The notes under the pieces were generated by a model. That model saw nothing but the letters and a program-made list of their open reading frames with translations, did no database searches and had not been told where the DNA came from. 35,639 nucleotides of DNA from an uncultured Bacillota bacterium. GTDB taxonomy: Bacteria > Bacillota_I > Bacilli_A > RF39 > UBA660. Of this stretch, positions 12,815-31,960 are shown piece after piece. Numbering within the stretch: the first letter of the stretch is position 1; each line of letters opens with the position of its first letter. Made by a program: the position numbers and the translations under genes. The stretch spans positions 1 to 35,639 of the forward strand of contig CAOJZV010000011.1 in the NCBI GenBank assembly GCA_948466255.1, in the 5' to 3' direction.

Positions 12815-12841
12815 ATATTTAAGATAAAGTAGGTGAAAAAT

Positions 12842-13912
12842 ATGAGAAGAAGAAGACGAAGAAAACAAAGAAAAATAATAATCATATCAAGCTTAACATT
12901 ATTATTTATAATGACAGTAGGGTATGCAGCATTTCAAACAAATATAAGTATAACTGCTAAGGGAAATGTTAAATGGGATGAAGCATGTGTAAATGGTAAT
13001 GAATGGACTTATGAATATAAAGATAATACAATTTACGATTTTTCCGCGCCTTGCTCAGGAACTTATAAATTAGAAACATGGGGAGCTCAAGGTGGAAGCG
13101 CTTTAACTTTAGAAGGTGGCTATGGTGGTTATTCAGTTGGAAATATTGACTTAAGAAGAAAACAACAATTATATATAGTTGTTGGTGGAAGAGGAGAATC
13201 ATCTGGAGAGATGACATTAAACACAAATGAATTTACTATATTAAATGGCGGTTATAATGGTGGCGGAAAAGGAGCAAGAGGATATTGTAGCGGTAATTTG
13301 AGACATGCTACTAGTGGTGGTGGTGCAACTCATATTGCAACATCTTCAGGACTTTTATCTTCTTTTGAAAATAATAAAGAAAATGTTATTATTGTTGCTG
13401 GAGGTGGTGGCGGAGCTTATTGTTCTAGTTTGGATGGAAAAACAATTCGTTCAGGTGGTCCTAATGGAGTAGGAGGCTCTGCTGGAGGATATATCGGTAA
13501 TAGTGCTCCTTGGAGTGGTAGCAGTGGTAATGGAATAAATTATATTGCTACTGGAGGAAATCAAGATGTTGGTGGGAATAGTGGTAGTAGTTATATAAAT
13601 GATAATAGTGTTAGTGGTGGATTTGGACAGGGTGGTCAAATCAGCTCTGAAGGTGGCTGTAGTAATCCTGTTGGTGGGGGTAGTGGTTATTATGGCGGCG
13701 GCCTTAGTAGATATGCCCCTGCTGCTGGAGGATCTAGTTATATAAATAATCCAAATTTAAAAGAAAAGCATATGGTCTGTTATAATTGTACTACAAGTGA
13801 TAATGAAGGGACTAAAACTATTACTACAACAAAAATAAGTGAAACGCCAGCCACAGATACCGCTAAAAAAGGTGATGGCTATGCCAAAATAACCTTATTA
13901 TCGCATAATTAA
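12842..13912 (+). CDS. Exported glycine-rich protein under poly-G promoter
   Basis: The 356-residue protein has a leader of basic residues (MRRRRRRKQRK) and a membrane segment ending GYAAFQTNISITAKGN, then an extracellular domain. From about residue 35 this is a glycine-rich domain of the Gly_rich (PF12810) type: WGAQGGSA, GGYGGYSVG, LYIVVGGRG, GGGATHIA, VIIVAGGGGGA, ending GDGYAKITLL. No sortase motif is visible, so it is probably held by the N-terminal segment or released. ATG 12842 follows AGGTGA by five bases; the upstream GTG 12833 lies in that site. The leader is almost the same as in the gene at 31082, at DNA level too. Function unknown; surface adhesion or matrix is likely. Confidence 0.85.
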   Translation: MRRRRRRKQRKIIIISSLTLLFIMTVGYAAFQTNISITAKGNVKWDEACVNGNEWTYEYKDNTIYDFSAPCSGTYKLETWGAQGGSALTLEGGYGGYSVGNIDLRRKQQLYIVVGGRGESSGEMTLNTNEFTILNGGYNGGGKGARGYCSGNLRHATSGGGATHIATSSGLLSSFENNKENVIIVAGGGGGAYCSSLDGKTIRSGGPNGVGGSAGGYIGNSAPWSGSSGNGINYIATGGNQDVGGNSGSSYINDNSVSGGFGQGGQISSEGGCSNPVGGGSGYYGGGLSRYAPAAGGSSYINNPNLKEKHMVCYNCTTSDNEGTKTITTTKISETPATDTAKKGDGYAKITLLSHN

Positions 13913-25906: not shown

Positions 25907-25935
25907 TTGATTTAAAAATAACTAAATGATATACT
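25907..25935 (+). promoter_or_regulatory. Promoter of the metallophosphoesterase pair
   Basis: TTGATT at 25907, a 17-base spacer and TATACT at 25930. The leader of about 85 bases holds a 7-bp hairpin, ATAACAC with GTGTTAT (25992-26010), ending ten bases before the ribosome site; it could affect translation. Confidence 0.65.
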
Positions 25936-26028
25936 TTTAGTAGAATAGATGACGGTATAGGAAGTAAGAAAAATTATAAAATTTATTAGTAATAACACCA
26001 TAAGTGTTATGTTTTGTGAGGGGCAATT

Positions 26029-27009
26029 ATGAGTGAAAAAGAAATTTTAGAAGAATTAAAAAGAATAACAGTTAAGCAGACTTTGTTATCAAAATTATGT
26101 GAAGAATTAGAAATAACTGAGCTTGAAGTATTAGGCTTAATTAGAAAGCTTCGTGAAGAAGGAGTAAATATTTTAGTACAAGAGCGTGATGATGGAATTT
26201 ATATGTTTAATCATGGCGAAAGAGAATTGAGTGAAGAAAACAGTTATCAATTTTATACAAATGATGATCATGAATTTAAATTTGTTGCAATTTCGGATAC
26301 AAGATTTGGGTCTAAATCACAACAGTTATCAATATTAAATGATATTTATACTAAAGCTTATGATTTGGGTTATCAAAATGTTATTTTATGTGGTAATATT
26401 TCTGAAGGTCTTTATCCTTTAAATAGTATATATCCTGACAGTAATTTTCTTGATGATACATTAAAACAAATTGATTATATTTCAGAATTTTATCCTTATG
26501 TTGAAGGGATGCAAACATTTTTTATAACCGGCGCAAAAGATGAAAAGCATTTAAAGGATAATAAAATAAATATTGGTAGCAGAATCAGTGATGTGAGAGA
26601 TGATATGATTTATTTAGGCGAAAGCTCTTGTAATGTTTTAATAGATAAGGCTAACATGTTAGTTTTTAGTCCTAAATTATCTAAAACTTATACAATGTCT
26701 TATAGACTACAACAACAAGTTGATTCATTTAGAAGTGAGGACAAACCGAATATTTTACTTTATGGTGGATTATTACAAATGGAAAAGTTTACTTATCGTA
26801 ATGTGGTTTGTATATCAGTGCCAAGTGTTTGTGCGACAACAAAAGAAATGAACGATAAAAGATATTCTAATACAATAGGTGCTTGGTATGTAACTGTTAC
26901 AACTGATGGGCATGGGAAATTAAAGAAGGTAACCGCGCTTGACTCGGTTTATTACAAAACCAATAAGGATGATTATAAAAAACCAAAGGTGCTTAGAATA
27001 GGAAAATAA
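26029..27009 (+). CDS. Metallophosphoesterase-like protein lacking metal ligands
   Basis: The 326-residue protein has an N-terminal helix-turn-helix-like part (about 1-50, KLCEELEITELEVLGLIRKLREEG), then a calcineurin-like phosphoesterase fold. Set against the gene that follows, every metal site is altered: SDTRFGS has R92 for His, CGNISEG has N123 for Asp, GAKDEKH has K170 for His, the HP site is SP, and YGGLLQ replaces the GHxH motif. Only D90 and D171 remain. It should not bind two metals and is probably a pseudoenzyme, perhaps a regulatory or structural partner of its active neighbour, 16 bases downstream. GAGGGGCAATT precedes the ATG. The reading frame is intact, so it is kept under selection. 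Confidence 0.85.
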   Translation: MSEKEILEELKRITVKQTLLSKLCEELEITELEVLGLIRKLREEGVNILVQERDDGIYMFNHGERELSEENSYQFYTNDDHEFKFVAISDTRFGSKSQQLSILNDIYTKAYDLGYQNVILCGNISEGLYPLNSIYPDSNFLDDTLKQIDYISEFYPYVEGMQTFFITGAKDEKHLKDNKINIGSRISDVRDDMIYLGESSCNVLIDKANMLVFSPKLSKTYTMSYRLQQQVDSFRSEDKPNILLYGGLLQMEKFTYRNVVCISVPSVCATTKEMNDKRYSNTIGAWYVTVTTDGHGKLKKVTALDSVYYKTNKDDYKKPKVLRIGK

Positions 27010-27025
27010 ATAGGGGTATAGTAGT

Positions 27026-28033
27026 ATGATGGATAAAAGAATTGATATAAATATGAAGTATGCTAATAAATTTTATAGATATATGAAAAATGATTCATCT
27101 ATTGAAGAATTTATGGAAAAATTTCATGTCAGTTTTAATGAGTTAAAAGGTATATTAGAATTATGTAGAATGTACGGAAAAAATGTAGATGTTATAGAAC
27201 AACAAGGGACATTGGTTTTTAAAAAATCATTACCTAAGAGTGTAATTTCCAAAAAGCCGGATCTAAACCAAAAAGATTTAATTTGTACGGAAATTTTGGT
27301 AGTATCAGATACCCACTTTGGAAATATACATCAACAACTTCATTTACTTAATAAGGTATATTTAGAGGCCTATAAAAGAGGAATTAAACTAGTTTTGCAT
27401 TGTGGTGATTTAGTAGATGGTACTTATCCTAATAGGCCAGAGAATCCAAGACAACAATTTTTACACGGATTTGATGAGCAAGTGGGTTATGTGGTAGATA
27501 TGTATCCAAAATTAAGAGGTATTACAACTAAATATATATTAGGTAGTCATGATGAAACCCATTATAAAAATGATCAGGCTACGGTTAGTGAATGGGTATC
27601 AAGATGTAGAAAAGATATGGCTTTTTTAGGGCAAGATCATGCAGTTATAGATTTAAATGGTGTTAAAATTTTCATGGATCATCCAGGTGGAGGCTCTGCA
27701 CAATCTGTGTCATATAAACTCCAAAAACGTATTGAAATTTTAGAACCTGATTTTAAACCTAAAATAATGCTTATTGGCCATTATCATAAAAGTTACTCTT
27801 TTGTATATAGAAATGTTAGAGGAATAGAGGTACCTTGCTTTTGTGGGAAAACTCAATTTCAACAAAAACAGGGATTATCAAATATTATAGGAGCTTATTT
27901 TTTGACGATTTATTCTGATAAAAAAGGTAATATTCAATATTTTGAACCAGAAGAGGTTTTATTTAAACCTAATGATTTGTGGGATGAAGCCGATAAGGAT
28001 AAAAATAAGGTAAAACAATTAGTTAGAAGATAA
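27026..28033 (+). CDS. Metallophosphoesterase with N-terminal helical domain
   Basis: This 335-residue paralogue of the preceding gene keeps the full calcineurin-like active site: SDTHFGN (D95, H97), HCGDLVDG (D128), GSHDETH (H175, D176), a His in MDHPGGG (H219) and GHYHKSY (H252, H254). It should bind two divalent metals and cleave a phosphoester; whether the target is DNA, RNA or a nucleotide is unknown. Residues 1-60 are a helical part, possibly DNA-binding as in its neighbour (FMEKFHVSFNELKGILELCRMYG). Both genes share a promoter, and this one ends in a terminator. The start could be ATG 27026 or 27029. Confidence 0.88.
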   Translation: MMDKRIDINMKYANKFYRYMKNDSSIEEFMEKFHVSFNELKGILELCRMYGKNVDVIEQQGTLVFKKSLPKSVISKKPDLNQKDLICTEILVVSDTHFGNIHQQLHLLNKVYLEAYKRGIKLVLHCGDLVDGTYPNRPENPRQQFLHGFDEQVGYVVDMYPKLRGITTKYILGSHDETHYKNDQATVSEWVSRCRKDMAFLGQDHAVIDLNGVKIFMDHPGGGSAQSVSYKLQKRIEILEPDFKPKIMLIGHYHKSYSFVYRNVRGIEVPCFCGKTQFQQKQGLSNIIGAYFLTIYSDKKGNIQYFEPEEVLFKPNDLWDEADKDKNKVKQLVRR

Positions 28034-28057
28034 AAGTCATTTTGAAAATGGCTTTTT
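28033..28057 (+). terminator. Intrinsic terminator after the phosphoesterase pair
   Basis: AAAGTCATTT pairs with AAATGGCTTT (one wobble) around TGA and is followed by T residues. Confidence 0.7.
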
Positions 28058-28103
28058 ATTATTTGGTTAAATTGTGTTATACTAATATTTAAGAGGTGAG
28101 GTT

Positions 28104-29072: not shown

Positions 29073-29930
29073 TTAATTGTTTTCGACGTAATATGCATAA
29101 TATTCTTCTAGAGTTAAATTTTCATCATGCATTTTTTCAGCTGCATATTCTCCTACATAACGGTAGTGCCATGGTTCATATTGATAACCAGTAATATCTT
29201 CTTTATCTTTTGGGAATCTTAATATGAAACCATATTTATAAGCGTTATTTTGTAGCCATTTAAAAGCGTCAGTATTTTCAAAGCTATTATCTATTTGGTT
29301 TATATCAGAAACTAAGCCTGTTTGGTGTTCTGAAAATCCTGGTCTTGCTGAATAAGTATCAGCAGCCTTTTTTCCGTCTCTTTCTACGTATTTATCATAT
29401 AAATTTACTTGATATGAATAACTACGATAACCTGATGCATTTTTAATAGTTATATTATCTAAAGTGGCAGCATCTGACATTTTCATAAAATGGTCGGCTG
29501 CCTCTTTACGCATTTTACTATTTATTCCAGTGTTATATTTTGCGGTTAAGGTAATTAAATCATCTGGTTCATAGTTTTCGGTTAAGTAATAATATTTATT
29601 TACAAGCATTAAATTATTATCTTTAATATTAGTTTTTTCAGTATCTTCATATTTTGTTTTATCTAAATTGGAGTTGACATCGGCAATAATTTTACTTAAT
29701 TCTAAATCAGTATTTTCACCAGCATATTTTAAGTATCGGTCTAGATTGTTTTCAATATAATATTTTTCATTTTTAAGTTTTGCACTTAAAGAAGTGTCGG
29801 CAACTTTATTTACTTTAAGTTCTTTATTTTTTATTTCTTTTGTATTGTTTAAAAATATGAATAAAATGGATCCTGTTAATATAATTATAAATAAAAATAT
29901 AATTATGGTTTTCTTTTTTCTTTTTTTCAT
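29073..29930 (-). CDS. VanY-type D-Ala-D-Ala carboxypeptidase (second of pair)
   Basis: The 285-residue protein has a basic tail and a membrane anchor (about 8-27), a linker of about 120 residues and a VanY/LAS-family zinc peptidase domain: NASGYRSYSYQ, ARPGFSEHQTGLVSDI (His and Asp ligands) and EPWHYRYVG (third ligand). Such enzymes trim the terminal D-Ala from peptidoglycan stem peptides outside the cell. It starts four bases after the related gene at 29935, with AAGGAG overlapping that stop, so the pair is translated together. The domain ends LEEYYAYYVENN, like its partner. No vancomycin resistance genes are nearby, so this is wall housekeeping. Confidence 0.92.
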   Translation of the reverse strand: MKKRKKKTIIIFLFIIILTGSILFIFLNNTKEIKNKELKVNKVADTSLSAKLKNEKYYIENNLDRYLKYAGENTDLELSKIIADVNSNLDKTKYEDTEKTNIKDNNLMLVNKYYYLTENYEPDDLITLTAKYNTGINSKMRKEAADHFMKMSDAATLDNITIKNASGYRSYSYQVNLYDKYVERDGKKAADTYSARPGFSEHQTGLVSDINQIDNSFENTDAFKWLQNNAYKYGFILRFPKDKEDITGYQYEPWHYRYVGEYAAEKMHDENLTLEEYYAYYVENN

Positions 29931-29934
29931 GAAA

Positions 29935-30891
29935 TTACTCCTTATCTAGATAATAGGCATAATATTCATCATAAGTTAAACCACTATTTTTTACTTTAGT
30001 AGCTAATTCTTTACCTAAGTAACGATAATGCCATGATTCATATGAATAACCAGTTATATCTTCTTTACCTTTAGGGTATCTTAAAATGAATCCATATTTG
30101 TGGGCATTATTTTGTAACCATTTAAAGGCATCGGTATTTTCAAAGTCTTTTCCTTTTGTATTATATGTAATTATATCTAATGCAAGACCCGTTTGGTGTT
30201 CAGAAAAGTCTGGTCTAGCAGCAATACCGTCAGCATATTCTTCATCATACCAGGTTTTATATTGGTCATAAGTTTCTTTTTGGATTTCATATGTACGATA
30301 ACCAGAATTAATTATTATTGTTATATCATCTTTTTTTGCCGCATTGAACATTTTTTTGAAAGCCTCATAAGCATCTTTTTTTAACTGAATATTTCCGTAA
30401 GAATACCAGTTACTTACATCTACTATATTTTCTGGTTTGTATTTTTCTGGAAGAGAATAATATTTATTTACTAAAATAGCATTTTCTTTATCCATGTTAG
30501 TTTTTTCAGTATGTGTGTAATAATTGTAATTGCGTTTTACATTTACTTTTGTAACAACATCTTTGTAATTTATTTTATTACTTTTTTCTAATCTTTTATT
30601 AATCTCTTTTTTATATTTATCAAAGTTTTTCCATATAAAATATTTTTGTTTAGTAAGTGGGATTAAATGTTTATCATACTCATTATCTAAAGCTTTATTT
30701 AAAACTTTATCTTCGGCTTTTAAAAGGGTAGTTATTTCTTTTTCACTATATCCAATTTTACCAAGTTTATATTCAGTACTTGTAAAATGTTTGTATGTAC
30801 AAATACCAACAATAATTAAAATTATTACTAAAATAATACCTATTAAAGCAAAAACTCTTTCTTTTCTAATATTTCTTTTTTTATATACCAT
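29935..30891 (-). CDS. VanY-type D-Ala-D-Ala carboxypeptidase (first of pair)
   Basis: The 318-residue protein has a membrane anchor (about 15-35), a long helical linker and a VanY domain with NSGYRTYEIQ, ARPDFSEHQTGLALDI and ESWHYRYLGK; the zinc ligands are kept. It is a tandem paralogue of the gene at 29073; the catalytic halves are clearly alike (DAFKWLQNNAHKYGFILR in both, with small changes), while the N-terminal linkers have diverged, suggesting different partners or reach. ATG 30891 follows GGAGGATGCAAT; the upstream ATG 30918 overlaps the -10 box and is rejected. First gene of a two-gene operon. Confidence 0.92.
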   Translation of the reverse strand: MVYKKRNIRKERVFALIGIILVIILIIVGICTYKHFTSTEYKLGKIGYSEKEITTLLKAEDKVLNKALDNEYDKHLIPLTKQKYFIWKNFDKYKKEINKRLEKSNKINYKDVVTKVNVKRNYNYYTHTEKTNMDKENAILVNKYYSLPEKYKPENIVDVSNWYSYGNIQLKKDAYEAFKKMFNAAKKDDITIIINSGYRTYEIQKETYDQYKTWYDEEYADGIAARPDFSEHQTGLALDIITYNTKGKDFENTDAFKWLQNNAHKYGFILRYPKGKEDITGYSYESWHYRYLGKELATKVKNSGLTYDEYYAYYLDKE

Positions 30892-30916
30892 ATTGCATCC
30901 TCCATTCTCTATTTTC

Positions 30917-30925
30917 ATTATATCA
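30917..30925 (-). promoter_or_regulatory. Extended -10 promoter of the VanY pair
   Basis: Reverse strand TGATATAAT at 30925-30917, an extended -10 element with no clear -35 box, 26 bases ahead of the chosen start. Confidence 0.5.
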
Positions 30926-31081: not shown

Positions 31082-31960
31082 ATGAGAAGAAGAAAAAGAA
31101 GAAAGCAAAGGAAAATGATATTAATATCAAGTTTAACATTATTATTCATAATAACAGTCGGATATGCGGCATTTCAGACAAATATAAATATAACAGCTAA
31201 AGGAAATATCCTAGAAAAAGGAATAACTATAAGTGAGTTAAAAAATAAAGTAGTAACATCAGGAGACGGATTATATAAAGATACATATGAATCAGGAAGA
31301 TATGTATATAAAGGTGCAAATCCAGATAATTATATAACCTTTAATAATGAACAATGTAGAATAATATCAATAGAAACAGATGGAACATTAAAAATAATGA
31401 AAAAGGATAGTATTAGTAGTATGGCTTGGAATTTAACTAAAGCTGATAATTGGGCGAGACCAGCTGATTTAAATACTTATTTAAATAGTACAACTGATGC
31501 AAACAGTTATTATAATAAATTAAGTAGTGATGCCAAAGGCTTAATCCAAAAACATATATGGGAAATAGGCCAAGTTGAAGTTTATAATACAGATTTAGCA
31601 GCACAAATTCAAGCTGAAAAGGGAACTACATGGAACGGGAATATAGGATTGATAAGCGTAAGCGACGCAATAAGAGCAAATACAAATATAGAACAATGTG
31701 GGACTATGAAATTACATTTTGATAATAAATTATTATGTAAAACTACAAATTATATAGTTCCAACATCGGGGTATTTATGGACTATTTCATCTCGTGCAAA
31801 TATTGAAGGACATGTGTTTCGTGTTAATAGCGATGGTAATTTGAGTAGCAATGCTGGTAGTGATGATTATAGTGGGGTTGCACCTGTTTTATATTTGAAA
31901 TCAAATATAACATTAACAGGACAAGGAACCGAAACAAATTCTTATAATATAAAAAAGTAA
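31082..31960 (+). CDS. Exported protein with shared leader and FGE/lectin-like C-terminus
   Basis: The 292-residue protein has the leader MRRRKRRKQRK followed by a membrane segment ending GYAAFQTNINITAKGN, almost identical to the gene at 12842. The outer part starts about residue 55 with GRYVYKGANPDNYITFNNE and IISIETDGTLKIM, continues with NWARPADLNTYLN, GLISVSDAIRAN and ends YLWTISSRA, VFRVNSDGNLSSNA, SGVAPVLYLKSNITLTGQG. That ending resembles the variable domains of formylglycine-enzyme or C-type-lectin-like surface proteins (DUF6273-like); this is my impression, not a proof. Codon style shifts between A-ending and T-ending blocks along the gene. AAGGTGATAAA precedes ATG 31082. Confidence 0.8.
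   Translation: MRRRKRRKQRKMILISSLTLLFIITVGYAAFQTNINITAKGNILEKGITISELKNKVVTSGDGLYKDTYESGRYVYKGANPDNYITFNNEQCRIISIETDGTLKIMKKDSISSMAWNLTKADNWARPADLNTYLNSTTDANSYYNKLSSDAKGLIQKHIWEIGQVEVYNTDLAAQIQAEKGTTWNGNIGLISVSDAIRANTNIEQCGTMKLHFDNKLLCKTTNYIVPTSGYLWTISSRANIEGHVFRVNSDGNLSSNAGSDDYSGVAPVLYLKSNITLTGQGTETNSYNIKK

Follow-up and report, generated by a model that had tools for sequence, protein, structure and literature searches.

Based on comparisons of sequences, predicted structures and gene neighbourhoods, we found that two adjacent genes of an uncultured Bacillota bacterium encode metallophosphoesterase (MPE) paralogues, one with most of its active site in place (the active copy) and one with nearly all of it replaced (the dead copy). 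There is good support for reading the two as an enzyme and its pseudoenzyme; the dead copy is, almost certainly, no relic but a functioning partner of the live one. We give a probability of roughly 0.6 to the fuller reading, in which the two proteins are an obligate 1:1 enzyme-pseudoenzyme pair from a PolD-DP1-like branch of the calcineurin-like phosphoesterases, chromosomal and probably acting on nucleic acid.

The paired reading frames and their active sites

The genes lie in a stretch of 35,639 nucleotides (contig CAOJZV010000011.1), which was analysed as a whole and is called the window here, and they are directly flanked by QueA and MiaA. The features of the pair are given in Table 1. Both open reading frames are intact and on the same strand, and the gap of 16 nt between them fits their co-transcription. 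A terminator scan made no call at the hairpin behind the active copy. The two proteins are 32% identical across 227 aa (E 9e-45), confirming the paralogous, uninterrupted frames that had been described from the DNA letters. Elsewhere in the window, two tandem VanY-type D-alanyl-D-alanine carboxypeptidases are encoded on the - strand (29073-30918), and an N-terminus of the form RRRKRRKQRK...VGYAAFQTNI is common to the proteins at 12833-13912 and 31082-31960. These two are probable surface proteins, of which one matches the ALK/LTK glycine-rich domain and one is weakly similar to DUF6273.

Table 1. Features of the gene pair in the window
Feature	Position	Strand	Remarks
Extended -10 promoter-like site 5' of the pair	25907..25935	+	weak; scan gave no excess over chance
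Shine-Dalgarno-like GAGGGG, 5 nt 5' of dead ORF	26018..26023	+	sequence
Dead copy: winged helix + MPE fold, 326 aa	26029..27009	+	active-site residues gone save D90
Winged helix of dead copy	26029..26220	+	helices aa 3-13, 20-27, 31-43; strands aa 46-53, 56-64; AlphaFold2 model
Codons D90-T91-R92 of dead copy	26296..26304	+	first ligand Asp retained; R92 (AGA) opposite active-copy H97
Shine-Dalgarno-like AGGGG, 9 nt 5' of active ORF	27012..27016	+	sequence
Active copy: winged helix + MPE, 335 aa	27026..28033	+	has D95, H97, D128, H175, H219, H252, H254
Codon 174 of active copy (AGT, Ser)	27545..27547	+	canonical motif: metal-binding Asn here
Weak hairpin with T tract 3' of active ORF, possible terminator	28029..28060	+	-8.3 kcal/mol, z -2.3

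The active copy matched Pfam Metallophos above the curated cut-off (38.9 bits versus 21.5; E 1.7e-9). No match to this model was obtained for the dead copy, whose membership of the superfamily rests on homology and on its predicted fold. Residues of the dead and active copies pair in the family alignment as R92/H97, N123/D128, A169-K170/S174-H175, S214/H219, G247/H252 and L249/H254. The sole canonical metal ligand left in the dead copy of the window is D90 (equivalent to D95), one of seven, and the catalytic His is gone as well. Thus, the replacements listed in the sequence-only reading were seen again in the alignment, but the loss is not total, as the first Asp is retained. That reading had also credited the second protein with all ligands. 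The seven residues it named are present, and one of them, H175, is what we take to be the catalytic His and not a metal ligand; "all ligands" does not hold, because six of the seven canonical ligands (D, H, D, N, H, H, H) are found and the Asn is replaced by Ser174. The substitution leaves the homology of the active copy to the superfamily unaffected, whereas it does affect canonical activity. In PolD DP1 the seven metal ligands are D363, H365, D407, N453, H500, H563 and H565 (PMC4996933).

Predicted fold and phage-borne relatives

AlphaFold2, supplied with 52 window and related sequences, modelled the dead protein of the window with a mean pLDDT of 91.8 and a pTM of 0.78, in agreement with the earlier claim that its overall fold is preserved. 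The model consists of three helices and a beta hairpin, forming a winged helix, followed directly by a complete MPE core; no OB barrel inserted in the MPE part was found in it. We also modelled a fused relative of 665 aa (L086) from its own alignment of 12 sequences, leaving out an alignment of mixed fused and single proteins, in which dead copies were misplaced onto the active half. In this model (pLDDT 73, pTM 0.66) each half comprises a winged helix and an MPE domain, and both halves show the same three helices and hairpin; as the pTM of 0.66 comes from 12 sequences, the placement of the halves relative to each other is not fixed. The dead half of this protein matched Pfam HTH_Mga above the cut-off, in the region that corresponds to the winged helix. 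Together with the two models, this match bears out the helix-turn-helix part that had been suspected at the N terminus of both proteins.

The solved structures nearest to the dead-copy model were seven PolD DP1 entries, which took ranks 1-7 with Z scores of 16.7-20.6 over about 228 residues, and DP1 was also ranked first by Foldseek. Eukaryotic B-subunits gave Z scores of about 14-15 (at most 15.0 for the Pol delta B-subunit), and 1s3l and Rv0805 appeared among the structural matches. The DP1 model NF003118 was likewise the top curated match of the active copy in the window (42.1 bits, with a cut-off of 445) and of nine of the ten relatives scanned. Since these scores are far under the cut-off, the pair and the phage-branch proteins are DP1-like and not DP1. 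The MPE nuclease fold is common to the pair and Mre11/SbcD, at lower Z scores (up to 15.7) than for DP1. Unlike Mre11/SbcD, the pair has no adjoining SbcC/Rad50 ATPase gene in the window, and the SbcD model TIGR00619 did not match the window proteins at E values up to 10; in the own genome it gave no match at 1e-10. SbcD was found to be nearly absent from the order: the family cut-off was exceeded in 2 of 241 genomes, compared with 8 of 14 control genomes. The idea of the pair as an SbcD replacement was uninformative, since SbcD is nearly absent with or without the pair.

Outside the family of Bacilli that carries the pair, the close relatives are single copies. An alignment of phage proteins recovered 168 relatives on viral contigs, and among the best 80 of these loci the reading frame was recognised in 78, all of them single copy. 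The active site of these 78 proteins reads DHDNHHHH in 61, has Gln for H97 in 16 and has Gln and Arg in one, so that Gln replaces the H97 ligand in 17 of the 78 phage relatives (viral loci L187-L266). Their neighbours in phages and prophages, named by reading the sequences, resemble helicases, DNA polymerase, SSB, methyltransferase and nucleotide-metabolism genes, and in other families of the class the single copies also stand among phage-like genes, as judged from the reading frames. The best PHROG match of the single-copy phage wHTH-MPE proteins was phrog_7339, DNA repair exonuclease. These proteins share the architecture of the pair, nearly all of them retain the active site, and they lie in DNA-metabolism surroundings; unlike the pair, they were single in 78 of 78 contigs checked and kept the Asn of the GNHD motif in every case. 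A homologue in the Halorubrum tailed virus BLv36 (hypothetical protein WLW38154, L109:11770-12930) is encoded within the head module, flanked by portal-like and major-head-like genes.

As the close relatives are single and either phage-borne or surrounded by phage-like genes, the pair is probably the chromosomal descendant of a phage-type single-copy enzyme, and either a tandem duplication or two separate captures may have given rise to it. In a tree with the phage proteins, the dead copies group with the latter (support 87); a single clade of dead and active copies is not rejected (AU p 0.39). Other wHTH-MPE proteins also occur in these bacteria. A third paralogue with intact ligands was found in the own genome, directly 3' of a uvrC-like gene (L060:3785-4765), in a neighbourhood that is conserved in several genomes of the genus. 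Another tandem of the genus (L044-L049), from a different subfamily, has intact active sites in both copies and lies near topoisomerase I-like and 2-hydroxyacyl-CoA dehydratase activator-like genes.

The pair could alternatively be a regulated phosphodiesterase whose substrate is a small molecule, either a nucleotide or a second messenger; the dead copy would then sense the ligand, and the winged helices would serve regulation or dimerisation, not DNA cleavage. MPE folds do include small-molecule phosphodiesterases, as exemplified by 1s3l and Rv0805, ligand binding at a pseudo-site need not involve metal, and the Asn-to-Ser replacement suggests altered chemistry. However, both the curated sequence models and the solved structures put DP1 first, and the phage relatives are set in DNA-metabolism surroundings, so that we consider a small-molecule substrate unlikely.

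The Asn-to-Ser replacement is not an alignment artefact, as position 174 is encoded by AGT and lies in a conserved motif, GSHDETH. There was also no sign of a genetic-code artefact, with standard stops and R92 encoded by AGA. Ser occupies the position of the GNHD Asn in 28 of the 34 paired active copies, and because the metal-binding Asn is thus missing from most of them, their activity is not certain. Set against the 78 of 78 phage relatives with Asn, this frequency would also suit a pair in which neither copy is an efficient enzyme and which is instead a DNA-binding or regulatory complex of winged helices, two of which are predicted per pair. We regard this as improbable, since, save for one D128N, none of the 34 active copies varies at the catalytic His or the remaining ligands, and the tree requires four or more interchanges of Ser and Asn, as is expected if a working site tolerates both.

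Gene order, fusion and stepwise loss of ligands

Within a sample of the genus, the pair was present in 9 of 36 genomes (own included), and the dead gene always preceded the active one. A scan of GTDB genomes seeded with the dead-copy alignment gave 38 loci. In 37 of them the dead copy is followed by the active copy, eight times as a single reading frame of 665-742 aa, and in the 29 separate pairs the gap runs from -26 (overlap) to +13 nt; at the 38th locus (L108), which resembles part of a prophage, one copy stands alone and has Gln in place of H97. Since the dead copy had been the query here, bias was avoided by a profile search covering 241 genomes from the order. The pair was found in 23 of them, with the dead copy first in all and two genomes carrying it twice; these counts are not additive with those from GTDB, because the two sets overlap in source. 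Fused reading frames account for 10 pair copies in 9 of the 23 genomes, and the tree implies six or more changes between the fused and split states.

No orphan of the dead or the active clade was seen in the 241 genomes of the order. The two genes occurred together, a point that the sequence-only reading had asked to be checked, in the 37 GTDB loci and in all 23 pair-bearing genomes, and relatives without the first gene or with a catalytically intact first copy, which it had set as its refutation, were encountered neither in those 37 loci nor in the 241 genomes. Class-wide and phylum-wide samples confined the pair to one family of Bacilli, that of the source organism. The pair had no match on plasmids, and neither the dead nor the active alignment detected a member of the pair clades on viral contigs. 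No operon partners conserved across genera were found. The genes around the pair vary from genus to genus, so that no pathway partner backs a role in DNA metabolism.

The 34 dead copies form one clade (support 100) and the 34 active copies another (support 98). Distances among dead copies correlate with those among active copies (r=0.950, 0 of 2000 permutations), a value to which shared species history contributes. In three close pairs, dN/dS was 0.018-0.028 for the dead and 0.013-0.058 for the active copies; purifying selection acts on the dead copy as strongly as on its active partner. Without a 1:1 complex it is difficult to account for the fixed-order adjacency, the recurrent fusions and the equal selection on both chains, and fusion together with co-evolution suggests that the two proteins do form one. 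In one genome (G068, L142:1385-2380) a stop codon lies within the dead reading frame beside an intact active partner, through decay or an assembly error. That the dead copy is a decaying pseudogene beside its parent, as its missing ligands and this stop codon might indicate, is extremely improbable and was rejected on the selection and fusion data, since its dN/dS is like that of the active copy, the gene is intact in many genera, and where fusion has occurred it is joined to the active half in frame.

All 34 dead copies have lost H97, and all but one have lost H254, whereas D128 is retained in 7, H219 in 8 and H252 in 7. Six of the 34 still have four to five of the eight active-site residues, indicating that the loss of the site is old and was stepwise, which answers the question of its age that had been put to the phylogeny. 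From this pattern of residues, H97 and nearly always H254 appear to have been lost early and the others later. The most conserved segment of the dead copies (S-x-RSEDK...GGLLQ...) is unlike that of the active copy.

Proposed action of the pair and comparison with known systems

In the DP1-like enzyme-pseudoenzyme reading that we favour, two chains, each with an N-terminal winged helix, would form a 1:1 pseudo-dimer, which in many relatives would be made as a single fused chain. The second subunit would be a metal-dependent phosphodiesterase, presumably active despite the change of Asn to Ser. Its substrate would most likely be DNA or another nucleic acid, our best guess given the resemblance to DP1, the presence of winged helices and the phage setting of the relatives. 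Having given up catalysis, the first subunit could serve as a scaffold with a substrate-positioning or regulatory role, acting via its winged helix and via the conserved segment peculiar to it (RSEDK...GGLLQ).

The archaeal PolD DP1, a proofreading exonuclease, is the nearest MPE both by curated sequence model and by structure (Z 20.6). PolD is described as Archaea-only in one account (PMC10721889), and unlike DP1 the pair is bacterial, scores below the family cut-off, carries a winged helix instead of the OB domain and has a dead paralogue as partner. The B-subunits of eukaryotic replicative polymerases have a DP1-type fold with inactivated catalytic motifs and are thought to be scaffolds (PMC4996933). 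The dead copy resembles those of Pol alpha, delta and epsilon in being an inactivated DP1-type fold (Z about 14-15), but the B-subunits are partnered by a polymerase and the dead copy by a still-active paralogue. Active enzymes that work with a catalytically dead paralogue are also exemplified by the AdoMetDC-prozyme of Trypanosoma and by RNase III editing endonuclease heterodimers (PMC5201418, PMC9508840). The folds of these are unrelated to that of the pair, and chain fusion, which occurs in the pair, is not described for them in the available text of those papers.

The open-access literature searched yielded no account of a bacterial MPE pair with one active and one dead member. Enzyme-pseudoenzyme pairs as such, and dead DP1-type folds in the form of the B-subunits, are already known. 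The pairing of enzyme and pseudoenzyme is an established principle, and to our knowledge few such pairs have a recorded history. More tentatively, and at somewhat less than even odds, the pair may be a bacterial counterpart of the history of the B-subunits: a phage-type DP1-like nuclease would have become chromosomal and been duplicated or joined by a second copy, one copy becoming obligatory and non-catalytic through successive stages of site loss, with repeated fusion, so that gut Bacilli would possess a heterodimeric nuclease of a new type.

Within one clade, dead copies are found with five down to none of the eight active-site residues, with the partner maintained throughout and with split and fused forms side by side. 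The order in which a metal site is dismantled becomes testable in this family, H97 being gone in every dead copy sampled. The same applies to the role of a dead DP1-like subunit for its live partner, a question that is shared with the inactive B-subunits of eukaryotic polymerases.
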